A DNA stretch of 33,580 nucleotides, from NCBI GenBank assembly GCA_009787695.1, contig WQSW01000026.1:1-33580 (forward strand), written 5' to 3'. Position numbers and translations under genes: made by a program. This DNA comes from Treponema sp. Its GTDB lineage: Bacteria; Spirochaetota; Spirochaetia; Treponematales; Breznakiellaceae. Each line of letters opens with the position of its first letter. Position 1 is the first letter of the stretch. The notes under the pieces are model-generated. The model was not told the DNA's origin. It was given only the letters and a program-made list of their open reading frames with translations, and did not search any database. Shown here one piece after another: positions 65 through 15,756 of the stretch.

Positions 65-3000
65 TTGTCATTAAAAAGTATAAATTCGACAACCTCAACG
101 AGCAATACTACATTCAAACTTGATCCATCGAATACATTTCCAAACAATTTAAAAAAGAAAGAAAATGAAAACTCTTTATTTCCAGATTATATCATTCCAG
201 GTACACAAATATACTTTGTAATTCCGATAAAAGAAGTAAAAAACAGTTCGCCTGTCAATCTAGTTCAATTAGGTAATAATGATACATTTAAAGAGGATTA
301 TACTGCTTTTGCTTATTATCTAGATTATAAAATATCAGAGTACATTTGGATTAACAATATTAACATTATAAATAACACTTTAACACTAGCAAAAAACATG
401 AGTATTACAGACGCAAAGTTAAAATATAATATGCAGCAAAATTGGAAAATATTTTGGTTTGAATTATTAAAAATATTAATAGATACCAGTAAGAATAATA
501 ATATACATTTATGTGACATATTGAAGACAAGTGATTTCTATAAGTATCTTGAGGAGAAAGACAATTGTGAAATATTCATAAAAGGTTTTTTTGCCGCAGC
601 TTCGCTATTTACTTGCGAGGATTATTTGGAAGATACAGATTTTTATATATGTATATATTTTATGAATCTTCCATCACATTTTATCTATATATTTCAGGAA
701 GTTGGCAGTTCTCTTTCATTAATGAATTTTTCGCGAAATTTACAAGTTTTTCTGTCTTGTGAAGAAGAGCCGGATACACAATATAATTTAAAATACCCAA
801 AACAATTGGTTGTGTTGGGAACTAAAGTTGGTTATGTTATACAGAATGCATACATAATGTCATTAGAACATGGGGAAAGTAACATAAATACTGCTTATTA
901 CATTCGTGCTTCTGAATTATTGGAAATATTTAATAAAATACAACAACGAAAAAATGAAAGACCGCAATTTGTATGCCCGTTTAATGTAATTAAAAAAGAA
1001 GATAATGAAAATAATGAAAATAATGATTTGCCTCAATATTTCAAGAAAATTAGAGAAATAGTGGAAAAACCATTAGTTAATGAGGATCCTTTGTCTAGAG
1101 GATATCGTCTTCCGGATATCCATATGCGTTTAGGGAATAAGATTCATGCAAGCTCATTTTATGAAATGTCCTTTTTGTTTTACAGAACATCAATTGCAAA
1201 TAGGGTAGCATTTTACATTTTACAGGATATTCTTAAAAATTTAGAGAAAATACCCAATGATATTATTTTTTATGGATATGCTTCCTATTCTCAGGCGCTG
1301 ATTTTTTCCTTACATGAGATATTAAAAAAATATTTTGAGGTAAAAGGTATAAAAAAAGAAGTTCATTATGCTATTTATCAATATAATCTACAGCTGGAAT
1401 CTTTTCTTTTACAATCTGTTTTTCCTTTAGGTAACAGCACTTCAAAAAATACTGCCATTGATAGAGTGCAAATATACAGTACTTTAGAATTAAATGATAA
1501 CGAAAAACCTCGTAAAACATCTGTTATTCAAATTGTTCCAATTGGTTCAACATTAACAACATTTGATAAAATGAGAGCTAAATATAAAAGAGACAGAGAT
1601 GATAAAAATATTGAAATTTCCAGCATAATGTTTAATTACAATGTCTTTCTTGTACGTGATGAAAACATTAAATTTGATAAAGGTCTATCTTTTATTGAAA
1701 AAGAATTATGGGAATCCATTGATATTTGTAAAATGGAAATTGAAGTCAAAATAGATAAATTAAAAGAATTAAAAGATAATAATATCATTTCATACATTAT
1801 TGAAAGAGAATCAAATTGGTATCAGCCTTTAAAATGCAAACATTGTTTTCCTGATATTATTAATGAAGAGGCACCATTAGTTGAAACAGATCCGACATCA
1901 ACAGTTCCAACTCTTCAAATATATCAAATCGATAGTTTGTCTACAGATGATATAAGTAATGATACTTTGCTTAACTCATCAGAAAACAATGAACGCTTAT
2001 TCCAATTACAAGATTGTGTTTATTATGGGCACTTTCTACGCGGGAAAAATCATTATCAATATTATTTTGATACTCAAAAATATATTTCCAAAAAAATAGT
2101 AAAAGAACAATTAAAAGAATGGTTAGCAATGGAGAAAGAAAATGATATTACTAGAATTAGAAATGAAACTATTAATAGTAATAATAAAATTTCAACACCT
2201 GTTTTAAATATAATATTTTCCCCTGAGCACAATTCAAATGTGGGTTTTTCACAATATGTAAATGCATATTATTTTAATGGAACTGCTGAAATTGTATCTG
2301 TAAATGTAGATAAACAATTTCGCTCCAATTTTGTGTGCGAACATGATGCTTTACGTAAAATAATTAATCATTTATTTAATGAACATGAAGGGTTGCCTAT
2401 TAACTTCTTTTATGTAGATGATTGTATTATTACCGGTGGTAGTTTTCACCGGGCAAAAATGTTGATACAGTCTCTGATTCCAGAAAAATATAGACCGAGT
2501 AAATACGAATCCGTGTTTTCAAAATGTTTTATTTTGATCGATAGACTTTCTATGGATACAAAGGAATCATATGTAAATTATCCAAAAGGTAATTTTTTAT
2601 CGTTTTGCAAAGTAGACATTTCAAATATGCGGAAACAAGGTGACTCTTGCGTCGGTTGTAAACTTGAATATGAGGCAAAATATTTGTTTAAACGCAGTAC
2701 CACCCGCAGTTTCGCGAATTATTGGGCAAAAAAAGCTCTGGAATACACTCCTATAATGTATGATGATACTGAAAGAAGAAAAGATTATGGTAATACAAAA
2801 GCATTTGTACGTATGTTATTAACACATTTCATAGAGTGTTATTTTGAAAAAGTAATGATAAATTATGAAAGCATTTCTGAGCTTTTTAATATTATATTTA
2901 ATGAATTAAAAGAGAAAGATTCAAATAATAATTTTACTCTGGAGAACAAAAAACTAGCTATTGTCGTAAAAACCTTTCAAGTATTAAAAGAAACCGGCAG

Positions 3001-5506
3001 ATACTCATATAAGCAAATACTTGTGTGTATAATTGAACATTTACTAAAAATATTATCACGTCCATTTAAATCATATAATTTTAATGTAAAAAAGGTTATT
3101 TTAAAATTTATTATTAACATTTGCGAATCATTATTTACAGGATGTGCTAAAGATGAAATAACGGGGAAAATATGCAATATTATAATATCTGCAGATAATA
3201 ATGAATTTAAAACACTTGATTTTATTAAAAATTCATTATTCGAAGCATTAGCTGATATGAGAAGCACATATTTTCTAAGAAAAGAAACAATAAAAAAGAT
3301 ATACAAATTTTTAAAAAGGTTTATAAATCTTGAATCTAAAAACGGATGCGCCTATTACAATGAAAAATATTGTAATAGGTTTGTTTCACATTTAAATGAT
3401 AAAATTAAATATTCCTGTGATAATAATTTAATACGCTGTTTTTGGAAATATTATTCTTTTCATATTCATAAAGTTATTGACGGTAGTGGCGATGAAACAC
3501 GCTCTTTGTGGATGGAATTCTTACTTTTAACAAGTATTGAATATCAGAATAATACTAATGAAAATGATATTCCGATTATGAAAGGAATATTATCTCCTTT
3601 ATATAATTCTATTGTAATAGAAAATGATTCGTATAATGACTATAATAAACTTTTTAAGGAATTCTGTATTGAAATATTTTTTCAAAATTCGCGATTGTTG
3701 TTTGACGGAATAGAAAAAATTAATAGAGAAATACCTGAGACCGATCCTACTGATAATAGCTATTTTTTACAAAACATGACAAATATGCGAGAATGGGATC
3801 TTAAATGGGCTTCTGTTGAGGCAGAAGTAAAAGAGGAAGAAGCGAAAGAGAAAAGAATAAATGTTGAGAAAGAATTATTTGATTATTTTATGAAAGATGG
3901 TAATGATGAAAAAAAAATAAAAGATAAATATCAAAAATTTATACAGAAAATACAAAATATGATCGTATCAAAATATTTGCTTGATAATGAAAAATTGCGA
4001 ATTGTTTTAGTAACTCAAAATGGTGATGATAATTTAATTCAAATGAATAATCTTGATTTTATTGCAGAGAATACACCAGAGAATTATTCTAAACTTGAAA
4101 TAGCAAAGGCAAAATATGTTATAAAAAAACGAATAATGTGGGCACTTGGTGCCAACTTAAAACACTCAATATTGGAAACGTATTCAAATACCCGTTTAAT
4201 TGATGATGGTTATTGTTTGATTCCTTCGCCAAATAATAAAGTAAAATTATTAAATGATAACTGTTTTGATAATCCAGAAAATGAGGATAGATTTAATATT
4301 AATAATGATTCAACTTCATTTAGAAAACCATTTTTTATTCTTCGTTTTGATAATATACCTATATGCGATGAAGTAAAGTTAGACCGCGAAGCAAGACCAA
4401 TTGAAAAAGTATACTTGTATATAAGCTTTCATTTTAACCCCTCTGAAAAAGAGAAAGAAAAGATTGTTCCTATCCTGATAATGCGTGATATTTTATCGTA
4501 TAGAAATCGTATTATGCGTATGCTGGAGAAAGATTTTAACAGTCAATTGATGCAGGCAATGGCGCGGGAAGCAGGTGAAAACGCTATTTTAAAACATGAA
4601 AAAGCAGTTGATCATTCAACAAATTTAGATGATTTGTTATCTCATAAGATTTGGGGAACTGAGAAACAATTGAAAGAAGATGAGCTTGAATGGTTGCTAT
4701 TTAAAAATAATACAAATATCCAAATTGCAAAACTCTTTAACAGATTATTGCTTGATGATAATGATTCTAAAAAGCAAATTCCAAAACTATATTTAAATGA
4801 AGAAGATATTAATACAGAAAATACTTATTCAACACCAGCAAGAGATTTTCTATTTGACTTATGGAATAAATCTTCCGATAAACGAGTAAAATTATGTGAA
4901 GATATGATAGAATTTACAATGATTAATTTGGATAATTCTTTAATTACAATTAAAGGTTATGGAGAAAATAGAGAATATTATAATTTAGAATATTTAAAAT
5001 GTATTTTATATGATATAATTTTTTCATGTGCAAAATTTTGGAATGAAGATGTTGATTTTTTATCACGTGTAAAAAAGTTAATTCGATATAAAAAAAAGTT
5101 TTATGAATATAAAAATAATGATGATTCTGATTATGAGGAGACAAGAATTGCTTATGATGATTTAAGATGCAAGGTTATTTTACTTCGTGAGGATAATTAT
5201 CTTGTTATTATTAACCCTGTAAGAAGGGAAGAAAATAGGATATTTGACGGATGGATTGATAAAACGAACCAAATTAAGTTTCAGTTAGAAAATCCTTACG
5301 ATTCTTTCAATGGTAATATGAGTTTATTTACAATTAGTAATTATATAAAAGGTATTTCTGAAAAAGAATCCTCTTTTGAATATTTTTCATTTGATAAATT
5401 GAAGCCAGATTGGCAAAAGATTATAAAATCAGAGTGGAAATTCTGTCAAATTGAGAATAAGGCATTGTGGTTCGTATCTAAATTGCCTATTTTTAAGGAG
5501 TTGTAA
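65..5506 (+). CDS. Giant conflict-system-like protein: two PRTase-like modules plus kinase-like C-terminal tail
   Basis: The protein has 1813 residues and I know no named family covering its full length. Two modules resemble phosphoribosyltransferase (PRTase) folds. The first spans roughly residues 400-600, with an IVPIGSTLTT loop at 490-499 and a CxxC at 591-594. The second spans roughly 718-880, with VDDCIITGGS at 784-793, close to the classical PRPP loop (two acidic residues, then T/G/G/S), and a CxxC at 862-865. A charged, probably coiled-coil stretch follows near 1255-1280. The C-terminus has features of a degenerate histidine kinase: a helical segment at 1474-1520 with His1511 and His1517, an N-box-like helix at 1642-1659, strand plus Asn1717, a glycine/serine turn and helix at 1749-1764, and a terminal LPI near 1807. 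The kinase assignment is inference. The start is uncertain: TTG 65 directly follows an in-frame TAA and has no clear ribosome-binding site. The receiver-like gene begins 3 nt after the stop. It is probably the sensor or regulatory core of the operon. Confidence 0.75.
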   Translation: MSLKSINSTTSTSNTTFKLDPSNTFPNNLKKKENENSLFPDYIIPGTQIYFVIPIKEVKNSSPVNLVQLGNNDTFKEDYTAFAYYLDYKISEYIWINNINIINNTLTLAKNMSITDAKLKYNMQQNWKIFWFELLKILIDTSKNNNIHLCDILKTSDFYKYLEEKDNCEIFIKGFFAAASLFTCEDYLEDTDFYICIYFMNLPSHFIYIFQEVGSSLSLMNFSRNLQVFLSCEEEPDTQYNLKYPKQLVVLGTKVGYVIQNAYIMSLEHGESNINTAYYIRASELLEIFNKIQQRKNERPQFVCPFNVIKKEDNENNENNDLPQYFKKIREIVEKPLVNEDPLSRGYRLPDIHMRLGNKIHASSFYEMSFLFYRTSIANRVAFYILQDILKNLEKIPNDIIFYGYASYSQALIFSLHEILKKYFEVKGIKKEVHYAIYQYNLQLESFLLQSVFPLGNSTSKNTAIDRVQIYSTLELNDNEKPRKTSVIQIVPIGSTLTTFDKMRAKYKRDRDDKNIEISSIMFNYNVFLVRDENIKFDKGLSFIEKELWESIDICKMEIEVKIDKLKELKDNNIISYIIERESNWYQPLKCKHCFPDIINEEAPLVETDPTSTVPTLQIYQIDSLSTDDISNDTLLNSSENNERLFQLQDCVYYGHFLRGKNHYQYYFDTQKYISKKIVKEQLKEWLAMEKENDITRIRNETINSNNKISTPVLNIIFSPEHNSNVGFSQYVNAYYFNGTAEIVSVNVDKQFRSNFVCEHDALRKIINHLFNEHEGLPINFFYVDDCIITGGSFHRAKMLIQSLIPEKYRPSKYESVFSKCFILIDRLSMDTKESYVNYPKGNFLSFCKVDISNMRKQGDSCVGCKLEYEAKYLFKRSTTRSFANYWAKKALEYTPIMYDDTERRKDYGNTKAFVRMLLTHFIECYFEKVMINYESISELFNIIFNELKEKDSNNNFTLENKKLAIVVKTFQVLKETGRYSYKQILVCIIEHLLKILSRPFKSYNFNVKKVILKFIINICESLFTGCAKDEITGKICNIIISADNNEFKTLDFIKNSLFEALADMRSTYFLRKETIKKIYKFLKRFINLESKNGCAYYNEKYCNRFVSHLNDKIKYSCDNNLIRCFWKYYSFHIHKVIDGSGDETRSLWMEFLLLTSIEYQNNTNENDIPIMKGILSPLYNSIVIENDSYNDYNKLFKEFCIEIFFQNSRLLFDGIEKINREIPETDPTDNSYFLQNMTNMREWDLKWASVEAEVKEEEAKEKRINVEKELFDYFMKDGNDEKKIKDKYQKFIQKIQNMIVSKYLLDNEKLRIVLVTQNGDDNLIQMNNLDFIAENTPENYSKLEIAKAKYVIKKRIMWALGANLKHSILETYSNTRLIDDGYCLIPSPNNKVKLLNDNCFDNPENEDRFNINNDSTSFRKPFFILRFDNIPICDEVKLDREARPIEKVYLYISFHFNPSEKEKEKIVPILIMRDILSYRNRIMRMLEKDFNSQLMQAMAREAGENAILKHEKAVDHSTNLDDLLSHKIWGTEKQLKEDELEWLLFKNNTNIQIAKLFNRLLLDDNDSKKQIPKLYLNEEDINTENTYSTPARDFLFDLWNKSSDKRVKLCEDMIEFTMINLDNSLITIKGYGENREYYNLEYLKCILYDIIFSCAKFWNEDVDFLSRVKKLIRYKKKFYEYKNNDDSDYEETRIAYDDLRCKVILLREDNYLVIINPVRREENRIFDGWIDKTNQIKFQLENPYDSFNGNMSLFTISNYIKGISEKESSFEYFSFDKLKPDWQKIIKSEWKFCQIENKALWFVSKLPIFKEL

Positions 5507-5509
5507 AAA

Positions 5510-6184
5510 ATGAAAAAAGTATATTGGATTGATGATAACCCTTCTGCTATGATGCAAACAATTAAAAATTTATTTCCATTATTATGGGAAAACAATTTTA
5601 ACAGCCAAATATTCTTTGTTGGAGATAACTATCGTGAACATTGCGAAAATATATCAAGGGATAAAATTACACTTGATAGCTTTGATAATACGATTTCTAA
5701 AATATTTGAAGAATTTTGTGAAGAACATGTTGATGAAAGCAATTCAGCGTTAAACACACCTAAAAAAGTTCGTGAGAATTATTTCAAAATGGGTATGAAG
5801 CTGTATAGCTCAGAAGAAATTGAAGATAAAAATACTACTAATATTGCAAACAAAATAGCGGAAAGAATAGATAACGACTCATTTGTTGGTGTTGATATTC
5901 GTCTATTTACTCCAGATAAAGATCAACTGGAAGATAAAGAAGGAAATTATGAAACATTAGCAATGAAATTATACTATTTGTTGTCAATTGACAAAATAAA
6001 AAATAGTACTGTATTTTTATATACTTCTTTTCCTACACCTAACATTCAAGAAAAATGGGAGAAAAAATTTATGAATTACCATCCAGACTATCAAAATAAA
6101 ATAAGAATATTTACTAGACAAAAACTTGTTAAGAATGATAAAGAAACAAATGAACTTCTTGAATTACTAAAAAAGAAGGTGTAA
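5510..6184 (+). CDS. Stand-alone receiver-like (response-regulator-like) protein
   Basis: The protein has 224 residues. The N-terminus MKKVYWIDDNP gives the acidic pair Asp8/Asp9 of a receiver domain. FVGVDIRLF places a candidate phospho-acceptor at Asp129, FLYTSFP gives the Thr172/Ser173 switch position, and Lys205 may serve as the conserved lysine. A normal receiver has its acceptor near residue 50-57. Here about 75 charged residues lie between the first strands and the acceptor strand, so the fold carries an insertion. There is no DNA-binding output domain. An AAGGAG sits 9 nt before the ATG, the upstream stop is 3 nt away and the next gene starts 1 nt after this one. The three genes are therefore almost certainly co-transcribed. 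Its likely partner is the kinase-like tail of the preceding protein, by inference from adjacency. Confidence 0.7.
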   Translation: MKKVYWIDDNPSAMMQTIKNLFPLLWENNFNSQIFFVGDNYREHCENISRDKITLDSFDNTISKIFEEFCEEHVDESNSALNTPKKVRENYFKMGMKLYSSEEIEDKNTTNIANKIAERIDNDSFVGVDIRLFTPDKDQLEDKEGNYETLAMKLYYLLSIDKIKNSTVFLYTSFPTPNIQEKWEKKFMNYHPDYQNKIRIFTRQKLVKNDKETNELLELLKKKV

Positions 6185-6185
6185 A

Positions 6186-7280
6186 TTGATATCAAAAATA
6201 TCTGAAGAGCAAAAGCTTAAACAATTAGAATTGTTTCTTGTTAATAACTGGGAAAATCTATGGCAGACAGGTAAATCGCCAAAAAAGAATAAAAGAATAC
6301 CTCTCTATCATTACACTTCTATAGATGCGTTGTTTTCAATTTTAGAAAATGATACACTTAGATTTTCAAATCTACGTTTATCTAATGATTTTTCTGAAGA
6401 GAGACTTCTTGGCAATAAATGGTTGTCAGAAAATAATTATGATAGCGTTAATTTTATTTTCTGTGTAGGAGAAGCAGGAAATTTATTAAGCCAATGGAGA
6501 AGTTATTGCTCTAATGGAGGCGCGGCAATTGAGTTGGATGTAGCTAAACCATATAAATATTATGCTTTGCATTCAGACTATAATGAAACAGGTAAATATG
6601 AAAATATTTACAGTATGGCAATTCCTGTTTTATATACCCAAATTGATTATGAAGATGTACGAGATGCAGCACATCAAATTACAGAATTAATTAAATCAAT
6701 ATTAGAAGAAACAATAATAAAAGGAAATAAAAATTATTCACTTTTAAAATTAAATGATTTTGTACCATACATTAAACATTTTGCTTTTCATGAAGAAGAA
6801 GAGCGACGATTATTAATTAATAATTTTAATAATAAATATTCAAAATGCATTGGTTTTAGAAAATTGCCAAATGGAACCAAATCTCCATATATAGATGTAA
6901 TATGCGGAATTGTAAATAAAACCAGAAAAATAACAATATCGAAAAATAAAATTAAAAAAATCATTGATAACAGTGAATTTGAAAAAACTATAATAGTTCC
7001 CATTTGTTCAAACCAGGAAGAGTTATATATGGCTGTTCGCGAATACATAAAAAAAGATGAAACATTAGAAAAGGATGGAGAAATTAAATTATTTTGTGAT
7101 GGACATATTCCTATTAGAAGTATCAAAATCGGACCAATGCCGGATCAGGAACGAATTAAAGAGCAAGTTCAAATATATTGTAACAGTAAGTACTGGTTAC
7201 AATATGTCGACGTATCTATATCTGCAATTCCTTATATTACTAGTATAAACAGTAAAAGCACCTCAATTTTTTCAATGTAA
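6186..7280 (+). CDS. DUF2971 family protein
   Basis: The protein has 364 residues. It shows the hallmarks of DUF2971: YHYTSIDALFSIL (residues 41-53), a following SNDFSE (66-71), and LLSQWRSYCSNGGAAIELD (100-118). The family's biochemical activity is unknown to me. Members are often found in accessory and defence regions. The conserved His-Tyr-Thr and SQW..Y patches suggest an enzyme-like pocket, but I cannot name a reaction. The start is TTG at 6186, preceded by GAAGGTG at 6175-6181. No in-frame ATG exists nearby, and the gene begins 1 nt after the receiver-like gene ends. As the last gene of a sensor-receiver-DUF2971 operon it is the natural candidate for the effector, which is inference. 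Base composition is as AT-rich as its two partners, unlike the IS remnants that follow. Confidence 0.8.
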   Translation: MISKISEEQKLKQLELFLVNNWENLWQTGKSPKKNKRIPLYHYTSIDALFSILENDTLRFSNLRLSNDFSEERLLGNKWLSENNYDSVNFIFCVGEAGNLLSQWRSYCSNGGAAIELDVAKPYKYYALHSDYNETGKYENIYSMAIPVLYTQIDYEDVRDAAHQITELIKSILEETIIKGNKNYSLLKLNDFVPYIKHFAFHEEEERRLLINNFNNKYSKCIGFRKLPNGTKSPYIDVICGIVNKTRKITISKNKIKKIIDNSEFEKTIIVPICSNQEELYMAVREYIKKDETLEKDGEIKLFCDGHIPIRSIKIGPMPDQERIKEQVQIYCNSKYWLQYVDVSISAIPYITSINSKSTSIFSM

Positions 7281-7453
7281 TACCGTTGCATAGCCAATAC
7301 TTCAAGCTAAAAGGAGCGTACTAGTATCTACCCAAATTCGATAGTATTCGATGCTCTTACGATCAGACCATATGTAGTACCTTTCTTTTTATAACCTTTA
7401 CTTATTCTATCAATACCAGACATCACTCCGCAACCCCCCGCATTGCCTCATGA

Positions 7454-7499
7454 AAAATGTTACCGAAAAAGGGTCATGACTCAAATAGAAAATGTTACC
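7454..7499 (+). repeat. Direct repeat AAAATGTTACC x2 (left end of an IS remnant)
   Basis: AAAATGTTACC occurs at 7454-7464 and again at 7489-7499, 35 bp apart, just before a broken transposase gene. A related motif in inverse orientation, GGGGACATTTT, lies just before 9630 after the second transposase remnant. Paired motifs at the ends fit the termini of ISNCY-like elements. The rest of 7281-7453 holds no recognisable gene. Confidence 0.5.
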
Positions 7500-7550
7500 C
7501 AAATTAAACACAGACTTTAGTCTGAAGGGTGCCGGAAGGAGAGCATCCGA

Positions 7551-8365
7551 ATGGGGTTAAACATGAAAAAAAAACAGGTTGTAACGAGAGAATATAAACC
7601 GCGTTATAAAAAAGCGACGAAGAAAGAGAAAAAAGCGTTGTTGGACGAATTAGTTAAACTGACAAGCTACCACCGAAAATCAGCCGTCAGGGCGTTACGC
7701 GCAAATACAACAATGCAGGTAATGATCTACATGGACGGCAAAGCGGTAAAAAATCAAACCGGAAAAAAAACATTCTGCGAACCGAAAGGGGAAACGCGTC
7801 TATACAGACGAAGTGATCTGCTGCCTGCGTCTTATCTGGACATTCTTCTGGTATAAATGCGGGAAAATACTCGCGCCTCTTATGAGGCAGCAGATGCATT
7901 ATATAGCCCAGCGGGAGGCTTTTCACGTCACGGATGAAATCGCGGAAAAGCTTAAAAAGATAAGCCCCGCGACCATCGACCGGTATCTTAAAAAAAGACA
8001 AGGACGCTCTGAGTCCTAAAGGGAAAAGCCTTACAAAACCGCTTGCTTCTCTGAAAAGCCGCATCCCTATCCGCACCTTCTACACCCCGCACGAGCGTAA
8101 AACGCCCGGTTTCTGGTAGATTGACACCGTACATCACTGCGGGCAGAGCGCTTCGGGGCAATATCTGTATACTTTGACCGCAACAGACATCGCAACGGGG
8201 CGGATCGAGCTGCGTTCCCTGCTCAATAACGCCCAAAGATGGACTTTTGAAGCTTTAGCCGACATCAAAGTGGCCGTTATCTTCCCTGTTCTGGAATTTC
8301 ACAGCGACAACGGATCTGAATTTATCAACTACGCAACTGAAGCTTGGTGTAAAAAAGAAAGCGTG
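7551..8365 (+). pseudogene. Broken integrase-core (rve) transposase, 3' truncated
   Basis: The gene begins with ATG 7551 or 7563 and an N-terminal domain of the type KPRYKKATKKEKKALLDEL. Homology then moves between frames: near 7800 it shifts into the frame reading RLIWTFFWYKCGKILAP, and past 8000 it shifts again. An in-frame TAG interrupts the FW-IDTVHHCGQ segment around 8119. The catalytic-core segments TATDIATGRIELRSLLNNA and HSDNGSEFIN are readable, giving the first two acidic catalytic residues. The third (Glu) is missing because the sequence changes abruptly at about 8365, where the recombinase gene on the other strand begins. The element is inactive debris of an ISNCY/IS481-like IS with an integrase-type catalytic domain. 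Confidence 0.85.
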
Positions 8366-8367
8366 GT

Positions 8368-8967
8368 TTATTTCAGGCAGAGATGTTCTCTTTTAAAAAT
8401 TCTCACTGTCTGCCGATGCACGCCAAATTCTTTACCTATTTGTACATTGTTCATTCCTTTTTTTACCATCTTTAGAATTTCTTTTTCGTGTCCTGTTAAT
8501 TTTATCTTCACAGCTTTTCCGGGTTTGCGACCTAAAATAATTCCTTCGGACTTGCATCGTGCAAGAGCTTCTTTGGTTCGTTGTGATATTAAATTACGTT
8601 CGATTTCTGCCGAAAGACCAAAGGCGAAAGCTAGTACTTTACTTTGTATATCATCGCCTAATCTGTATCCATCTTTGATAGTCCAAATTTTAGCACCAAC
8701 ACTTAGACAATGAGATAGAATTGACATTATCATAAACAAATTTCTTCCAAGACGTGATAATTCTGAACAGATAATAATATCATCCTGTTTAATATCTTTT
8801 AGTAACATATCCAATTTTCGCTTGTCTGGGGATTTTGTTCCGCTTATTGTCTCTTCAATCCATTGTCCTACTATAAGCTTCTTGCTCTTGCAAAATTTTT
8901 CAATTTCGTACTTCTGATTTTTAATTGTCTGCTTGTCAGTACTTACCCTGATGTAACCGTATACCAT
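8368..8967 (-). CDS. Serine recombinase (resolvase/DNA-invertase family)
   Basis: The protein has 199 residues, full length for a small serine recombinase, with no frameshift. The catalytic serine is Ser9 in YIRVST. Arg7 and the SRLGRN motif (71-76) complete the active-site signature. Residues 120-145 form the long E-helix (SAEIERNLISQRTKEAL), and the last 50 residues form a helix-turn-helix, as in Hin/Gin/Mpi-type invertases and Tn3-type resolvases. It cuts and rejoins DNA through a phosphoserine link. Whether it inverts or resolves cannot be told from the protein alone. A good AGGAGG ribosome-binding site precedes the ATG. It lies between two transposase fragments of different subfamilies, so it was either inserted there or is the surviving gene of a third element. 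Confidence 0.9.
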   Translation of the reverse strand: MVYGYIRVSTDKQTIKNQKYEIEKFCKSKKLIVGQWIEETISGTKSPDKRKLDMLLKDIKQDDIIICSELSRLGRNLFMIMSILSHCLSVGAKIWTIKDGYRLGDDIQSKVLAFAFGLSAEIERNLISQRTKEALARCKSEGIILGRKPGKAVKIKLTGHEKEILKMVKKGMNNVQIGKEFGVHRQTVRIFKREHLCLK

Positions 8968-8977
8968 ACATAAACCT

Positions 8978-8992
8978 CCTGTTTTTTACAGG
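8978..8992 (-). promoter_or_regulatory. Hairpin covering the recombinase ribosome-binding site
   Basis: On the minus strand the leader reads CCTGT-AAAAA-ACAGG immediately followed by AGG and then the start region. The 5-bp stem pairs part of the AGGAGG Shine-Dalgarno sequence, so it could damp translation of the recombinase. The stem is short, so the effect is uncertain. Confidence 0.35.
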
Positions 8993-9103
8993 ATAAAACA
9001 GTTTATAACACGGAAAAACAAGGTTAAAAATAAGTTTTTGCTAAATTAAATAGTTCAATTTTAGTTATTAATATGTGTTCATTTATTGTTATAAAGTATA
9101 CAT

Positions 9104-9592
9104 TTCGGGCGGGCTAGTGAAAAATTAGGAGTCGGTGTGATTGCCGCAAATAGCTCACAGGCTAAAAGGTGTGTGGAAAGGAATCACAGCGTTGATCAAG
9201 ACAGGCTTGTAAAGGAACTCAAGCTTTCATGGATATCGACAATAGCAGAAGCGAATCTTTATCTCGCGAAAAAATACCTCCCGAAAATGAATAAAAAATT
9301 TTCACGCCCTCCTGCGGATGAGTCTGACGCGCATGTCCCTTTGGGAAACATAAACCTGAAAGAAATTTTTTGTTTCGAATATGAACGTACAGTCAGTAAT
9401 GATTATATTATACGTTTTGAAAAACATCTGTTTCAAATTCTTAAGACTGAGAAAGCGCTTCCCAGACAGAAAGATAAAGTGCTTGTAAGAATTTTTCTTG
9501 ACGGGGCTTTATCAATTATATGGAAAGGTAAAAAACTCCTTGTTAAGGAGCTTGTAAAAAAAACAAAAAATCCTGGATGTTGCATGACCTAG
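9104..9592 (+). pseudogene. 3' fragment of an ISNCY-like transposase
   Basis: The frame carries FGRASEKLGVGVIAANSSQAK, followed by CVERNHSVDQDRLVKELKL and ISTIAEANLYL. This is the last catalytic block (the Glu in VER) and C-terminal part of an integrase-core transposase in which FGR...LGI...SPQAKGRVER is typical. Further on, VSNDYIIRFEKHLFQI and FLDGALSIIWKGK match the C-terminal beta domain. Homology starts only at about 9104 and nothing upstream in frame continues it, so the first two thirds are gone. The downstream sequence at 9597-9640 is probably the right end of that IS. This fragment is of a different subfamily from the 7551-8365 remnant, so the two are not halves of one gene. Confidence 0.8.
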
Positions 9593-9653
9593 AGGTCATT
9601 TCTACTGAACGGAAATAGGGGACATTTTAACTGACCGTTAACAAGTTTTTTTC

Positions 9654-9682
9654 TTGACAAATTTCAAATTACATAATAGACT
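9654..9682 (+). promoter_or_regulatory. Candidate promoter for the 9772 gene
   Basis: TTGACA (9654-9659), a 17-bp spacer and TAGACT (9677-9682, 4 of 6 to consensus) lie about 90 bp before the gene. The leader between them is AT-rich. AGGAGG at 9761-9766 serves as the ribosome-binding site. Confidence 0.4.
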
Positions 9683-9771
9683 ATATTAGATATATAGTGA
9701 CTACAGTTATATAAACGGTAGTACTGTTTGTATGCCTTTTTGGGTATAAGAAATTTCACGAGGAGGATTTT

Positions 9772-10059
9772 ATGAATATTAATGTGACGGATTGGACATG
9801 GGCGCAGTTGTGCGCCATCAATGATGTAGCCTTTCATAATGCGCTTATGCGGTCGGAGTTTTCAAGGGAGGTTGGCCAGAATAGACAGCGTCAAATAAAT
9901 GTGTACTGGCTGTACCCTTGGGCTTATAGTGACGAGTGTGGAAATCGTCGTTTTTCCGTCGTAGCAGCAGCGATTCGCGCTGCATGGCCTGATCATGAAT
10001 TTTTTAATTTACAGATTTTCTTGCAAGTAGCACGAGAGCGAAGATACTTAGGTCTATAA
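9772..10059 (+). CDS. Hypothetical protein, 95 aa
   Basis: I do not recognise this protein. It has 95 residues and is rich in Trp and aromatic residues (WTWAQLCAIND at the start, VYWLYPWAYSDEC mid-way). It has no signal peptide or membrane segment. A near-perfect AGGAGG lies 5 nt before the ATG, and a promoter-like TTGACA is upstream, so expression is plausible. Its codons are less AT-biased than those of the operon at 65-7280, suggesting a different origin. A perfect hairpin begins 11 nt after its stop. It sits between IS remnants and may be passenger cargo of a mobile element. Confidence 0.6.
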   Translation: MNINVTDWTWAQLCAINDVAFHNALMRSEFSREVGQNRQRQINVYWLYPWAYSDECGNRRFSVVAAAIRAAWPDHEFFNLQIFLQVARERRYLGL

Positions 10060-10070
10060 GCAATATGATC

Positions 10071-10107
10071 CATTTTGTTCGGGAAATGAAAAATCTCGAA
10101 CAAAATG
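10071..10107 (+). terminator. 11-bp perfect hairpin followed by a T-run
   Basis: CATTTTGTTCG (10071-10081) pairs perfectly with CGAACAAAATG (10097-10107) across a 15-nt loop, with a run of six T at 10113-10118. It starts 12 nt after the stop of the 95-aa gene and ends 38 nt before the next start. It may be a terminator or an attenuator between the two small genes. The loop is long for a classical terminator, so an operator palindrome is also possible. Confidence 0.5.
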
Positions 10108-10144
10108 ACATCTATTTTTTAAAAAGTATTTAGGAGAATTTTTT

Positions 10145-10498
10145 GTGATTTCTATAGAGCTTTTACCTTCAGTGAAGGATGCAGTAAGTAAACTCCCCTA
10201 TGGTCGTTTTTCTATACTACATCTTCATTTAGCTGAATATTTTGAAATGTCAGGACCACAGGCCAGAGGTTTCGGTAAACAGTTTTTTAATACTGTTACG
10301 AAAGGTTTTTTTGATACACCTACTTATACTGTAAAACCGGTTGATAGGACAAAAAATCCACAGTTATACGATAAAATTCAGAATCCTCTGTCTCGTCCGA
10401 CTTCCTTATACCCCCCAGAAATGTTGTTGAAGGATGCGACTGTTGAGCAGGCCATGGAACGAGTTTTTGAGGTTTATTTTGAACGTATTTATAAATAA
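10145..10498 (+). CDS. Hypothetical protein, 117 aa
   Basis: The protein has 117 residues with a GTG start preceded by AGGAG at 10132-10136 (8-nt spacing). The N-terminal half (SKLPYGRFSILHLH, then GFGKQFFNTVTKGFF) has the rhythm of a small winged-helix-like fold and weakly recalls DUF1413, but this is only a resemblance. The middle is basic (TVKPVDRTKNPQLYDK). The C-terminus is an amphipathic helix ending in YFERIYK. No membrane segment or signal peptide is seen. It is probably cargo together with the 95-aa gene, and the hairpin between them suggests separate or attenuated expression. Confidence 0.6.
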   Translation: MISIELLPSVKDAVSKLPYGRFSILHLHLAEYFEMSGPQARGFGKQFFNTVTKGFFDTPTYTVKPVDRTKNPQLYDKIQNPLSRPTSLYPPEMLLKDATVEQAMERVFEVYFERIYK

Positions 10499-10622
10499 TA
10501 TGCAAAATAAAATGCTATCAAATTATTATGTAATTAAAAAAAATAATATAGAAGAAAATATGGATTAAAAAAATGAAAAATGTGATATTATATATTTCAA
10601 AAACTAATTGGGAGTAGTGGAA

Positions 10623-12848
10623 ATGCGGGATGAAATAAAACAAATCATGGACGAGTTTTTATCAAGCGGAGCCTCATTGGATAATATTGATAGTCTTTCA
10701 AGTTTTCTATCAAATAAAGGCTTATTAAACTATGAAAATGTAATTGAAATTCTTATTTCTTCAAGTGGAAGAAGTGTATATCTAACACCTGATATTATAG
10801 CATTATTTCTTGTAAAATTCTCGCAAAAAGTAAAAGCCAAGTCTATTTTAGACCCATTTGCCAAATTCGGACAGGTTGCAATGTTGGCTGCTAAGGAGCC
10901 TGAAAGCCAAATTCATGCAGTTTGTTTAGACCTTAATGCTTATGCAATTATGCAGTTATTAGAACCAAAAAATGCAGCAGTTTATTCAGGAAATATACTG
11001 TATCTGGACATGAGACAAAAATATGATATTATAGTCTCAGACTTGCCATTTGGTATGACTACGAATTTTACAATTTGTAATGAAAGAATCACAGATATGG
11101 GATTGGCAGTTGTAGCAAAATGCATTAATTTGCTAAAAGATGATGGATATATCGTAGCAACATTTCCATGCAACATTATGTTTAATAAATCACTACATAT
11201 TCTGAGAAAATTCGAACAAGAGTCATTGTACATCAATGCAATTATTGATCTTCCTGTAGGTACGTACGCTCCATATACAAATATTTCCGGAAAAATTTTG
11301 GTATTTAAGAAACAAGCTGTGACAAATAGATTCGTTGCTCGGTTGTCGTCCGTAACAGAAATTGATACAATAATCAATAACTTACTTGGTGGTAATGAAA
11401 ATGATCATCCCAATCTTGGTGTATTTGTAAACCCAAACGAGTGTGCCGATTACTCTATTTATCATAGAAAAGCTAATAATGAAAAATTAGCGAAATTATT
11501 TGATGGCAGACTGCTTCCTTTAAGGGAAATATCATCCGCACAACTACCAAATAGTAATAACGAGTTTAAAGATGAGCCAAATAGTATTTATATTCCCAAA
11601 ACAGGCGTATCAAAAGTAGTTACGTCAATGAGCGATTTTGAAATTAAACCGCAAAACTATATCCAATTATTATTAAACCCCGAGTTAGTTCTTGACCGCT
11701 ATGCAGCATTCTTTTTCAACACACCAAAAGGTGTTGATGTTCGGCGCAATTATCAAATTGGACAATTACCAAGTTTTAATCTTAACACTGTACTGGATAT
11801 GGAAATTGCTTTGCCAACTATTGATATTCAAGGCGATATCATAAAGGCCAATTCGTCTGTTATAGAGCTTGAAACCCAACTTGTTGCAATCAAGCAAAAA
11901 TTAAACAAAGATCCTGCAGCGTATAAAGATATAAAATTAGAGCTTAAAAAAATCAAAAATCAGGATACACTTGAAAAATGGAATGAAACGTTACCATTTC
12001 CTATTGCATCAATTTTACGCAGATATATTGTGGCAGTAAGTGATAGGGATAAACAGGATGCTCTTTTAAATTTTTTTGAAGCTTTGTCTATTTATATATC
12101 AGCGCTATTTTTGAGTTTAATAAAACACTCGAAAGATTTTTTGGAAGGATTAGAAATACTAAAAGGTAATAAAATTGAATGCTTAAAAAATGCCACTTTT
12201 GGATATTGGGTAAGATTAAATGAAGAATATTCAAAAAAATTTAAAGAATTACTTAATAAATCAATAGAAGACAGGCAATTAGTATGTCGTGTTTTTGCAG
12301 CTGATAATTCAGAAACTATTGAAATTCTATGTAATGAAAAATTACATAAATTACTTAAAAAAGCTAGTGAAAAAAGAAATAATAAAGCACATGGTGGTGT
12401 TTTTAGCGAAAGTGTTTGTCGTAACAATGTTGGAGAATTATATGAGTTATTGTTAGAAATAAAAGCTATTTTAAATGATGCATTTGATGAATTCCAACTA
12501 ATAAGAGCAATTGGTACAGAAGTGTTATTAAAAGATTTTATAAATAATACAGTAGAACTAATAACGAGCTCAAACAGTACATTCCATACAAAAACAATCA
12601 AGTTGCCAATAGGTCTTGTTAAAGGATGTTTGTATATATATATAAATGAAACAAACACGCCAATTGATATGATTCCTCTTTTAATTATGGGTTCAACATT
12701 AGAAAAAGAAAAAAATGCTTGTTATTTTTACAATCAAACGACAACTGAAGATACAAAATATGTTTCGTATCATTATGAAGATAAACCTGAAGAGACAAAA
12801 AATGGAAATAATGTTTTTTTAGAAATCAAAGATATTATGAAAGTTTAA
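10623..12848 (+). CDS. N6-adenine methyltransferase-like / HsdS-like TRD / HEPN-like fusion protein
   Basis: The protein has 741 residues from ATG 10623, chosen because GGGAG at 10610-10614 is correctly spaced; an upstream TTG at 10608 overlaps that site. Residues 50-230 resemble HsdM: LTPDIIALFL, the SAM motif DPFAKFG (77-83), and motif IV as SDLPFG (139-144) in place of NPPF/Y. The missing first Asn may weaken or abolish methylation. Residues 375-430 resemble an HsdS half (QIGQLPSF, then IALPTIDIQGDIIKA and a coiled helix). From about 458 a helical domain starts with LPFPIASILRRY and contains RNNKAH at 585-590, matching the R-x4-6-H motif of HEPN ribonucleases. The last 90 residues look like a beta domain. 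There is no partner HsdR. It could be a modified-DNA or phage sensor coupled to an RNase (inference), or an orphan methylase. Confidence 0.75.
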   Translation: MRDEIKQIMDEFLSSGASLDNIDSLSSFLSNKGLLNYENVIEILISSSGRSVYLTPDIIALFLVKFSQKVKAKSILDPFAKFGQVAMLAAKEPESQIHAVCLDLNAYAIMQLLEPKNAAVYSGNILYLDMRQKYDIIVSDLPFGMTTNFTICNERITDMGLAVVAKCINLLKDDGYIVATFPCNIMFNKSLHILRKFEQESLYINAIIDLPVGTYAPYTNISGKILVFKKQAVTNRFVARLSSVTEIDTIINNLLGGNENDHPNLGVFVNPNECADYSIYHRKANNEKLAKLFDGRLLPLREISSAQLPNSNNEFKDEPNSIYIPKTGVSKVVTSMSDFEIKPQNYIQLLLNPELVLDRYAAFFFNTPKGVDVRRNYQIGQLPSFNLNTVLDMEIALPTIDIQGDIIKANSSVIELETQLVAIKQKLNKDPAAYKDIKLELKKIKNQDTLEKWNETLPFPIASILRRYIVAVSDRDKQDALLNFFEALSIYISALFLSLIKHSKDFLEGLEILKGNKIECLKNATFGYWVRLNEEYSKKFKELLNKSIEDRQLVCRVFAADNSETIEILCNEKLHKLLKKASEKRNNKAHGGVFSESVCRNNVGELYELLLEIKAILNDAFDEFQLIRAIGTEVLLKDFINNTVELITSSNSTFHTKTIKLPIGLVKGCLYIYINETNTPIDMIPLLIMGSTLEKEKNACYFYNQTTTEDTKYVSYHYEDKPEETKNGNNVFLEIKDIMKV

Positions 12849-12860
12849 ATTATTTAATGA

Positions 12861-12929
12861 ATAATTATTACTGTCGGTGGTGTTGGAGGTGGTGGAATAT
12901 TAACTGAGCTTGTTTTAAAAATTGTGTAA
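12861..12929 (+). pseudogene. Possible 5' remnant of a ThiF/E1-like gene
   Basis: Directly after a TGA at 12858-12860, 22 codons read IIITVGGVGGGGILTELVLKIV and then stop at 12927-12929. The run of small residues resembles the GxGGxGS nucleotide-binding loop at the N-terminus of ThiF/E1-type adenylating enzymes. No ATG is in frame, and the broken IS256 transposase begins 45 bp later. I read this as the stump of a gene cut by that insertion. The match is only one motif long, so it could be chance. Confidence 0.3.
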
Positions 12930-12973
12930 ATGACCATTAAAATGGTAGAAATACCAGAGGAGAAAACAAGGTC

Positions 12974-13690
12974 ATGGCACGAAAAAAAAAGAAAAAGAAA
13001 AGGACATTCCGGATCAGATTCTTGGTCAAATTAACTTCAAAGGACTAACCCAATATGACGTTGTAGGACAAGACGGATTAATAAAAATATTAACCGGAAA
13101 GATTCTTCAAAGAGCTCTTGAAGTGGAAATGATAGAACATTAAGGATACGAAAAAAATCTAATGTCGGTGATAACAGCGGAAACTCAAGGAACGGACATA
13201 CCGAAAAAACGGTTCTTCTGGAAAATCAGGAAACGACAATTGAAGTCCCAAGTGATCGGAACAGCACATTCGAACTGATAATAATTCCCAAACATGAAAA
13301 AATATCTCCGCTGTTTAACGATGATCAAATAATTTCAATGTATTTATTCGGAATGAGCGACCGCGACATCAAAGCTCATTTAGAGAAAATTTATAATGTT
13401 GACGTATCCCATGATCTGATAAGCCGGGTAACAAATGAAGTTTTGGAAGAAGTGAGAGAATGGCAAAACCGACCTCTTGAAAAATCATACGCATTTTTGT
13501 ATTTGGACGCTATACGTTTTAAAGGACACAAAGGCGGTAAAATTGGTCATGAAAAGCTTTTACGTGGCTTTAGGTGTCAATTTTGATGGGAAGAAGGAGA
13601 TTGCAAATTATAAAGTTCGAGGGCTATAGATAGCGCAGAATGAAGGCGCAAAATTTTGGATGGGCGTACTGGCGGAATTTAAAAACCGCA
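12974..13690 (+). pseudogene. Broken IS256-family (mutator-type) transposase
   Basis: The start MARKKKKKK at 12974 is followed by a frameshift in an A-run (about 12981-12990) into the frame KEKDIPDQILGQI. That frame hits a TAA at 13141-13143, where relatives read HLGYEK. A second shift near 13165 restores NSGNSRNGHTEKT. The frame then reads through DQIISMYLFGMSDRDIKAHL and VSHDLISRVTNEVLEEV, with EWQNRPLEKSYAFLYLDA, to a third shift near 13550. A TAG at 13627-13629 replaces the usual Trp before IAQNEGAKFWMGVL. Homology ends about 13690, roughly half-way through the protein, where a tyrosine recombinase begins. At least five lesions make it dead. Confidence 0.88.
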
Positions 13691-14205
13691 GAAGAGATTA
13701 TCAAAATTTTAAATAAAGAAAAAAATCCCAAACATCGGTTATTATTAATGCTTACTTATTCATCCGGTTTGCGTGTAAGTGAAGTTGTTTCTTTAAAAAA
13801 AGAACATATCGATTTATCACGACAGGTTATTTTTATTAAACAAGGTAAAGGCAGGAAAGATCGTTATACGATACTTTCTGAAAAAGTATTTCTTTTTATA
13901 CAAGAGTATTACGAACATTTCAAAATAGAAAAATGGATTTTTCCGGGTCAATCAGGAAAAAATCATTTGTCAATCCGCTCTGCTCAGCTTATTTTTGATA
14001 AAGTAGCCAGATGTGCTGGAATAACAAAAAAATATCTATCCATGGTTTGCGTCACACTTTTGCAACTCATCTTTTATAAAACGGAACTGATATCAGATTC
14101 TTTCAGGATCTTCTTGGTCATACCAGTATACGCACTACAGAACGTTACACCCATGTTGCAAAACGAAGCATTCTTAAAATAAAAAGCCCGCTTGATACTA
14201 TTTAA
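13690..14205 (+). pseudogene. Broken tyrosine recombinase (phage-integrase/Xer type)
   Basis: The catalytic domain runs from LKTAEEIIKILNKEK through YSSGLRVSEVVSLK (first catalytic Arg). After a one-base slip in a seven-A run at 14026-14032 the homology continues as HGLRHTFATHLL, then a TAA at 14077-14079, then GTDIRFFQDLLGHTS and TTERYTHVAKR (catalytic Tyr), with the end at 14205. The N-terminal SAM-like domain is missing where it abuts the IS256 remnant. The order of R, H-x-x-R, H and Y motifs is canonical, so the family call is firm even though the gene is inactive. It may be the leftover integration gene of an older element. Confidence 0.85.
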
Positions 14206-14207
14206 TC

Positions 14208-14228
14208 AACACAAACGGAGTTTGCGTT
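14208..14228 (+). repeat. Imperfect inverted repeat after the recombinase
   Basis: AACACAAAC (14208-14216) and GTTTGCGTT (14220-14228) pair in 8 of 9 positions around GGA. No T-run follows, so it is a weak terminator candidate or a remnant of a recombination site. Confidence 0.3.
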
Positions 14229-14256
14229 ATCTCTATTGCTGCGTTAACTCTTTTTC

Positions 14257-14285
14257 TTGACATTCTTATTCTATTATTATACAAT
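14257..14285 (+). promoter_or_regulatory. Strong candidate promoter for the toxin-antitoxin pair
   Basis: TTGACA (14257-14262), exactly 17 bp, then TACAAT (14280-14285). AAGGAG at 14291-14296 precedes the antitoxin ATG at 14302. Such pairs usually repress their own promoter. Confidence 0.75.
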
Positions 14286-14301
14286 AAAGCAAGGAGTTTT
14301 T

Positions 14302-14508
14302 ATGAATACAGTTACATTATCTAATAATAATCAGTTAAATTTTCCCAATAATATACGCGAAATTTATGGTTTAGAAGCTGGAGATACTTTTGAATTCATT
14401 TCTTATAATAATAGAATTGAACTAATCCCGTTAAAACCAATAAAAAAAATGAAAGGTTTATTTCAAGGAATAGATACAAATATTATACGGGAAGATGACA
14501 GAATATGA
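14302..14508 (+). CDS. AbrB/SpoVT-type antitoxin (VapB-like)
   Basis: The protein has 68 residues. VTLSNNNQLNFPNNIREIYGLEAGDTFEFI is the swapped-hairpin AbrB/MazE-type DNA-binding fold (split here as VTLSNNNQLNFPNNIREIY plus GLEAGDTFEFI). The C-terminal tail (MKGLFQGIDTNIIREDDRI) is the usual toxin-binding segment. ATG 14302 is chosen because AAGGAG ends 5 nt before it. A longer reading from TTG 14257 would start inside the promoter -35 box. The stop overlaps the toxin start as ATGA, so the two are translationally coupled. Confidence 0.88.
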   Translation: MNTVTLSNNNQLNFPNNIREIYGLEAGDTFEFISYNNRIELIPLKPIKKMKGLFQGIDTNIIREDDRI

Positions 14509-14882
14509 ATATTATTGATTCATCATTTTGGCTGGAATATTTTGCTGGCACTAAAGCAGGAGATATTGTTTCTAACATAGTTGAAAACATTGACGAATTA
14601 ATAGTTCCTACAATTACACTTTATGAAGTATTTAAAAAGTTATTAATCGAGAGAAATGAAGATGATGCTCTTATGGCAGTTGGGCATATGAAACAGGGAA
14701 AAGTTATAGATATAACAGAAGAATTGTCATTATCTGCTGCTAAAATAAGTATAAAGTATAAACTACCAATGGCTGACAGTATTATTTATGCAACAAATAT
14801 GAAATATAACTGTATTTTATGGACACAAGATCAACATTTTTCCGATTTATATTCCGTTAATTATTTTGAAAAGTTAACTTGA
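14505..14882 (+). CDS. PIN-domain toxin (VapC-like ribonuclease)
   Basis: The protein has 125 residues, typical of VapC. The acidic cluster of a PIN nuclease is intact: Asp5 in IIDSSFWLEYF, Glu41 in TLYEVFK, Asp91 in PMADSIIYA and Asp109 in WTQDQHF. Such toxins cleave tRNA or rRNA at a metal site when the antitoxin is degraded. It overlaps the antitoxin by four bases. Unlike its transposase and recombinase neighbours it carries no lesion, consistent with selection or addiction holding it in place. The overlapping-stop arrangement and the consensus promoter suggest a working module. Confidence 0.9.
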   Translation: MNIIDSSFWLEYFAGTKAGDIVSNIVENIDELIVPTITLYEVFKKLLIERNEDDALMAVGHMKQGKVIDITEELSLSAAKISIKYKLPMADSIIYATNMKYNCILWTQDQHFSDLYSVNYFEKLT

Positions 14883-14916
14883 TTATTAGATAAGTTTAAC
14901 GCATTAATACTAATAT

Positions 14917-15756
14917 TTAAAATAAAAACCCCTTCATAAAATTCTCTTCCAAAATATTTTCCGCCTCCAAAGCTGTTAAGCCGCCTCTCAGCTTTGCAAT
15001 AGTATCCAAAATAAAAAGTAAATCCCTCCATGAAGAGCAAAACTCGCCTTGCCGTCTCTGATAAGGAGCATCGGTTTCAGTAAGTAATCTTTCCTGCGGA
15101 AGATGAGCGCAGCTATTAATTGCTTGTTTGTGATTTAATAAAATTGTGTTTCCGAAAGAAAAATACGTATTCACTTTTCTGCGCAAAAGAGATAAACCTT
15201 CATCTAACGTACCTGACCATGAATGAAAAATAACCGCTTTGCACTTTGAAAGTGTTTTAGTAAACGCAAAAATCTTATGGATGGCGCGTCTTATATGAAG
15301 CACTAATGGTAAATCATAGCGAAGTGCAATTTCAATTTGAGCTGAAAAATAACGCTCTTGAATAGTTTCTGTCTCTTTAAAAGAAGCGTTAAAAAGGTCA
15401 AAGCCGCACTCTCCGATTGCAATAATACGTTTTTCAGACGCTAATTTATCAAGTGTTTCCAGTTGTTCATCAAAATTTATTTCTTGATAATCGCTGAAAG
15501 CCCGCAGTTTATCATTTAGCATTTTAAATATTTGCGGATGAATACCAAAACTTGACAGCAAAGTTAATTTTTCTTTTAAAATATCGTTACGTGACAATTT
15601 TTCGTTAAATGAAAGGTCGGTCATATCACAGGCATTTCCAATCGCTAAAATATTTTTGTCAGGAAGTGTATTTTCAAGTAAATGAATGTTTTTATTCTCT
15701 GTTTTTTGCAGAGTATTGAAAAGATCAAAAGGATGGCAATGAGCGTCTGTTAACAT
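14917..15756 (-). CDS. TatD family metal-dependent hydrolase
   Basis: The protein has 279 residues. The metal ligands of the TatD TIM barrel are visible: His6 and His8 (DAHCHPF), Glu116 (IGECGFD), His154 (LVLHIRRA), His178 (FHSWSG) and Asp229 (TETDAPYQRR). Family members are 3'-5' deoxyribonucleases or amidohydrolase-fold phosphatases acting in the cytoplasm. Its ATG overlaps the stop of mgtE as TAATG, so it is translationally coupled to the transporter gene. The middle of the protein (residues 85-110) is somewhat divergent, but the length and motifs are normal. Confidence 0.88.
   Translation of the reverse strand: MLTDAHCHPFDLFNTLQKTENKNIHLLENTLPDKNILAIGNACDMTDLSFNEKLSRNDILKEKLTLLSSFGIHPQIFKMLNDKLRAFSDYQEINFDEQLETLDKLASEKRIIAIGECGFDLFNASFKETETIQERYFSAQIEIALRYDLPLVLHIRRAIHKIFAFTKTLSKCKAVIFHSWSGTLDEGLSLLRRKVNTYFSFGNTILLNHKQAINSCAHLPQERLLTETDAPYQRRQGEFCSSWRDLLFILDTIAKLRGGLTALEAENILEENFMKGFLF

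Follow-up and report, generated by a model that had tools for sequence, protein, structure and literature searches.

A Treponema protein that joins inactive-looking restriction M- and S-like parts to a HEPN-like domain, a candidate second-line abortive-infection sensor-effector

What might a protein do that resembles the modification (M) and specificity (S) subunits of a type I restriction-modification (RM) system joined in one chain, has a degenerate methylase motif, and carries the signature of HEPN RNases toward its C terminus? The question is raised by a gene at positions 10623 to 12848 (+ strand) of contig WQSW01000026.1 from Treponema sp. (GenBank assembly GCA_009787695.1), the 33,580 nucleotides of which are referred to here as the window. 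With moderate confidence, we propose that its product is a single-chain sensor-effector of a second-line abortive-infection defense that is normally carried with type I RM systems. The N-terminal two thirds of the chain would be a catalytically dead imitation of the restriction M and S subunits acting as the sensor, and a predicted HEPN RNase would be the effector, shutting the cell down once a virus has passed first-line restriction.

The open reading frame (ORF; 10608 to 12848, + strand) is intact. Translation probably begins with the ATG at 10623, eight bases after a GGGAG ribosome-binding site (10610 to 10614), which gives a product of 741 amino acids. All parts of the gene lie on the + strand. 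An HsdM-like N6-methyltransferase (MTase) fold (residues 37 to 240, 10731 to 11342) includes a degenerate S-adenosylmethionine (SAM)-binding motif I, DPFAKFG (residues 77 to 83, 10851 to 10871), and a degenerate catalytic motif IV, SDLPFG (residues 139 to 144, 11037 to 11054). It is followed by an HsdS-like half made of a segment resembling a target recognition domain (TRD) and a spacer helix (residues ∼301 to 430, 11523 to 11912), a HEPN-like helical domain (residues 456 to 625, 11988 to 12497), and a beta-rich C-terminal tail (residues 626 to 741, 12498 to 12845). The helical domain contains a conserved acidic residue, E486, in what would be the second HEPN helix (12078 to 12080) and the putative catalytic motif RNNKAH, with R585 and H590 (residues 585 to 590, 12375 to 12392). 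The original prediction, made from the DNA letters, had described an N6-MTase fold, a TRD-like segment, and a HEPN-type motif in a single chain. All three hold and are conserved across the family described below, and the coordinates and residue numbers given for the gene, SDLPFG, and RNNKAH were right.

The chain belongs to a real protein family of 23 relatives, which together with the window make up 24 loci (the window, L002 to L023, and L034). A tblastn search of plasmid records recovered two full relatives, from Gordonia and Streptomyces, that align over the TRD and the C-terminal region, and the remaining matches in these records covered only the methylase domain. A search of genomes sampled one per species, with a profile built on the C-terminal 312 residues, added 20 loci, two of them in Bacteroidota and the others in Actinomycetota, as judged by record name. 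A scan of 393 genomes of the window's own phylum gave two other loci, among them a full-length copy, L034. The relatives keep the same order of parts and are about 740 to 960 amino acids long. In L023, the methylase part lies in a different frame, and in the Gordonia plasmid copy (L002, 7912 to 10431), an in-frame stop separates the TRD from the spacer helix; intact relatives exist. Locus L035 (8596 to 9442) has the HEPN and tail part alone, split over two frames and immediately 3′ of a Res-like gene in a methylase/ResIII pair, and is either a broken remnant or an effector module without the M-S part. Two scans of viral contigs found no relative, and phage records gave methylase-domain matches only. 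No copy was present in 100 near relatives of the host genome, and among 395 genomes around L004, only L004 itself had one. We found no paper describing such an architecture in the open-access literature, which is not proof of absence.

Type I RM genes adjoin the fused gene at 17 of the 24 loci; linkage at L013 could not be judged because the contig begins there. The fused gene starts within 10 nucleotides of the hsdR stop in 10 of 14 same-strand cases, four of them with 4-nucleotide overlaps. At L034 (5817 to 15141), the fused gene sits between an HNH gene and hsdR within a type I RM operon. The RM genes are divergent from the fused gene at L005; at L019, a kinase gene separates the two, and they lie on opposite strands. 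L018 has an RM context with dissimilar HsdM and HsdR. There are at least five RM contexts, including the main actinobacterial one, and the loci are not independent samples. L004 (3544 to 8942) has no type I RM genes nearby, and a Gabija pair, GajA and GajB (PADLOC), lies directly upstream of its fused gene. The L016 and L020 genomes gave no HSDR_N or Methylase_S match, with draft gaps possible, although PF04313 did recognize the HsdR proteins of L002 and L019. No HsdM, HsdS, or HsdR genes were found in the window, which is therefore not a type I RM locus itself; type I RM genes occur elsewhere in the same genome. The original remark that no restriction subunit is nearby thus describes the window correctly and misleads about the family, given the linkage at most of its loci.

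Linked RM genes also allowed the fused TRD to be compared with that of its neighbors. The PADLOC type I specificity-subunit model (Specificity_I) matched residues 331 to 426 of the window protein weakly (E = 4e−4), and the equivalent region of relatives matched HsdS models at 5e−8 (L005) and 7e−9 (L034), which confirms the HsdS-like assignment. When loci with 80 to 93% identical HsdM and HsdR are compared, the fused TRD is 71 to 83% identical, whereas the linked HsdS is 30 to 84% identical, mostly 30 to 40%. The fused TRD is conserved while HsdS diverges, which indicates that it does not track the specificity of the partner. This comparison weakens cognate-methylation sensing, which we had considered as a function. 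In addition, each domain of the L018 fused protein shares 60 to 79% identity with its counterparts, yet identity falls to about 20 to 30% for the HsdM and HsdR of this locus, suggesting that the partner RM system is exchangeable.

Together, the exchangeable partner, the two genomes in which no HsdR or HsdS match was found, and the independence of the TRD argue against strict masking of the PrrC type and against sensing of a cognate mark, and they favor a self-contained sensor-effector of use alongside restriction. The most likely trigger would be viral interference with restriction, for example, through the binding of a DNA mimic or an anti-restriction protein to M-S surfaces. In its specific form, which we offer tentatively, the protein would be an immune receptor with an integrated decoy, a duplicated dead M-S pair fused to a HEPN RNase, such that viral anti-restriction proteins directed against type I enzymes would bind the decoy and lead to cell suicide. 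A decoy for anti-restriction proteins fits the observations best, and its main rival is a DNA sensor of fixed preference. Several points weigh against the decoy and the wider sensor-effector proposal. The window copy has no linked RM system and the L016 and L020 genomes show no HsdR or HsdS, so that guarding one particular RM system is not obligatory. The MTase-like part of L002 is only about 29% identical to the neighboring HsdM, which weakens the version with a close mimic. The structural scores of the HEPN-like domain are modest (Z = 5.5), with a Foldseek probability of about 0.2, which alone is not significant.

A somewhat doubtful alternative is that the M-S-like part directly binds a fixed sequence or methylation state of incoming DNA and thereby switches on the HEPN RNase, and that the RM linkage reflects shared defense islands. 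This was the trigger originally suggested for the chain. It would account for the retention of an HsdS-type TRD with its spacer helix, for the match to M-TRD structures, and for the copies that occur without RM genes (the window, L016, and L020) or beside Gabija (L004). However, the fused TRD is not hypervariable as the linked HsdS is, so the partner's mark is not read, and a fixed site that is also present in the host genome would require an extra cue to tell self from non-self. Shared islands also fit poorly with a linkage that is specifically to type I RM and recurs in several separate contexts. Of the device originally envisaged, an abortive-infection-type sensor-effector is thus retained as the best reading, while DNA recognition is one of several possible triggers and is not favored because the sensor does not track the specificity of the neighboring HsdS.

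It is unlikely that the HEPN RNase is instead kept inactive by assembly with the linked HsdMSR complex and freed when that complex is disabled, as in PrrC-type latency. The operonic position after hsdR recalls that of prrC inside the EcoprrI locus, and HEPN proteins are widely linked to RM systems. Such latency, however, is difficult to reconcile with the L018 fused protein, which stays close to its relatives beside HsdM and HsdR that do not, with the L016 and L020 genomes, or with a window copy that has no RM genes to assemble with.

The proposed sensor-effector depends on the identity of the helical domain, which sequence comparison and modeling make very likely to be HEPN. An alignment of the window protein with 20 relatives that share just 16 to 26% identity with it shows no variation at R585, N586, H590, and G592, and these residues are also unchanged in L002, L023, and L034. 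The relatives carry RNxWxGH (R-x5-H), and the RNNKAH of the window is R-x4-H. The HEPN motif has been defined as Rx4-6H with a polar N, D, or H after the R, located at the end of helix 3 and the start of the loop to helix 4; helices 2 and 3 are often separated by an insert, and helix 2 has a conserved acidic residue (PMC3710099). The window motif fits this definition, with a polar residue after the R. In an AlphaFold2 model of residues 430 to 741 (predicted local distance difference test [pLDDT], 79; predicted template modeling score [pTM], 0.84), R585 ends helix 572-587, H590 lies in a loop, and helix 596-617 follows. E486, a nearly invariant column among the relatives, is in helix 474-502, and extra helices are inserted between this helix and helix 572-587. 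The modeled positions of the motif, the insert, and the acidic residue thus agree with the four-helix HEPN layout. The top two structural matches (VIA-align) were both HEPN, 7ae6_B (Z = 5.5; root mean square deviation [rmsd], 4.0; 121 residues aligned) and 2hsb (Z = 5.5; rmsd, 3.7; 115 residues aligned), with Z scores that are low for a helical bundle. The original call of a helical domain with a HEPN signature, for which structure prediction had been suggested as a check, is moderately supported by these data and by profile comparison. When the family profile was aligned with HEPN_Swt1 members, motif fell on motif and none of 200 column shuffles scored as well (P = 0.0028 for all members and 0.00019 for the DUF499 type). 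Comparison with DUF4145 was weaker (4 of 200 shuffles as good), in a set in which 4 of 16 rows were empty or nearly so. The alignments for the structure models were made without the plasmid-derived rows.

We infer that the HEPN-like domain would be an active, toxic RNase and that the chain would sense infection. That the domain is not HEPN and its R-x4-H serves another purpose, such as a structural or protein-binding role, is quite improbable. The Pfam HEPN_Swt1 matches are weak (2 of 19 members; best E = 0.047, below the cutoff), and the fold scores and the DUF4145 shuffles point the same way, but a HEPN identity accords with where the R and H lie, with the acidic residue and the insert, with the invariance of the motif, and with both of the best structural matches. 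The tail (residues 626 to 741), identified from model strands and conserved together with the HEPN part, matched no Pfam family. It also gave no known fold in the structure-match list, which says little as a single domain fills that list. When the HEPN and tail parts together were used for a profile search of PDB sequences, nothing meaningful was returned.

The proposal also requires a sensor that is no longer an enzyme. The methylase fold is clearly recognizable. Pfam N6_Mtase matched residues 37 to 234 (E = 7e−6, above the family cutoff), the full-length model matched the HsdM structure 3lkd_A (Z = 19.0; rmsd, 3.2; 221 residues aligned), and an MTase structure that includes the DNA mimic Ocr, 7eew, aligned over residues 51 to 432; the full-length model is weak overall (pLDDT, 66). 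Catalysis has probably been lost, as judged from the sequence motifs. An active N6-adenine DNA methyltransferase carries [NDS]PP[YFW], to which SDLPFG does not conform. Motif IV variants in the family are DLPF, DAPW (12 loci), EIPY, FPPF, DAPL, DPQW, DSPW, and VLPF, and the canonical [ND]PP[FYW] occurs in one of the 22 relatives that have the region (L007, DPPW). Motif I is partly deleted in both Bacteroidota members, and the actinobacterial members partly keep the SAM-site region as DPAAGxGFAG. As a control, the linked HsdM proteins keep NPP[FYW] and DP-x-x-G-[TS]-GG (DPTxGTGG for motif I) in 11 of 11 readable cases. The mutated catalytic motif first noticed in the window is therefore mirrored in nearly all relatives and is intact in the linked HsdM. 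All domains are under purifying selection, with ratios of nonsynonymous to synonymous changes (pN/pS) of 0.09 to 0.44 overall, 0.11 to 0.21 for HEPN, and 0.21 to 0.44 for the methylase part in nine pairs. This suggests that the degenerate methylase part has a noncatalytic role. A working methyltransferase whose noncatalytic helical tail binds RNA or a partner is very improbable, since the partly kept SAM-site region of actinobacterial members and the DPPW of L007 stand against a motif IV that varies freely (DAPW, EIPY, FPPF, DAPL, and DPQW), a motif I partly deleted in Bacteroidota, and an R-N-H in the tail that is invariant. The best PADLOC match to the MTase region was mad2 (1.8e−16), and membership in MADS was rejected on the basis of an NCBIfam MAD2 score of 18.9 bits against a cutoff of 720.

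By likeness of design, and not as a proven member, the protein can be placed with the RM guardians of abortive infection, of which PrrC responds to RM inhibition and PARIS to Ocr. Like PrrC in the type IC EcoprrI locus, it would be a HEPN-type RNase whose gene belongs to a type I RM locus, with a second-line suicide response that is known for PrrC and proposed here. The sensor of PrrC is an N-terminal ABC ATPase followed by the C-terminal HEPN, whereas that of the fused protein would be an inactive HsdM-HsdS-like chain with an MTase-fold N terminus, so it is not a PrrC. Its RM partner is also exchangeable and sometimes absent. PARIS shares the abortion of infection upon anti-restriction proteins, the trigger proposed here, but consists of two genes, ariA and ariB, without a methylase-like part, AriA being an ATPase. 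No ariA or ariB match was found in the chain or in the four neighboring proteins scanned. In DUF499-ATPase-HEPN systems (type 1 BREX-related, Hma), HEPN is likewise joined to an RM-like system with an N6-methylase, but it is the ATPase that carries HEPN, and the methylase stands apart. In the fused protein, the methylase-like chain itself carries HEPN, with no DUF499 ATPase observed. Type I M and S subunits and single-chain M-TRD enzymes (7eew, M.BseCI, and CamA) share the methyltransferase fold followed by a TRD and helix. The fused protein differs from them in its degenerate catalytic motif and in the added C-terminal HEPN-like domain and beta-rich tail. MADS, the source of the mad2 match to its MAD2 methyltransferase, differs in that no MADS partner genes were recognized alongside.

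In the window, the gene is flanked (7551 to 9592 and 12900 to 14182) by transposase remnants of the ISNCY and Mutator types, a resolvase that looks intact, and a fragment of a phage-type integrase, which suggests that it arrived by mobile elements. A 117-amino-acid ORF without a family match (10145 to 10498, +) lies directly upstream, and a pair resembling an AbrB/MazE antitoxin and a VapC toxin is found at 14257 to 14882 (+). No RNA family matched within 7000 to 15000. Farther away, three adjacent genes (65 to 7280, +) encode a 1,813-amino-acid protein without a Pfam, NCBIfam, or PADLOC match, a 224-amino-acid protein starting MKKVYWIDDNP, and a DUF2971 protein. This set, with a low G+C content of 0.27, looks like another defense-type operon.

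A census of HEPN domains stated that those of RM systems are fused to nucleases, helicases, and ATPases, “but not to the methylases,” and based a functional argument on this absence (Anantharaman et al. 2013, PMC3710099). Its table also lists HEPN-M/DUF86 as occasionally fused to nucleic-acid methylase domains (PMC3710099), so the novelty here is limited to RM-linked, M-S-like chains. The family is a counterexample to the census statement, albeit with a methylase that lacks its active site. It may also be a compact example of a defense enzyme's inactive copy detecting when the working enzyme is sabotaged, and some genes annotated merely as “N-6 DNA methylase” next to type I RM systems may be toxins.
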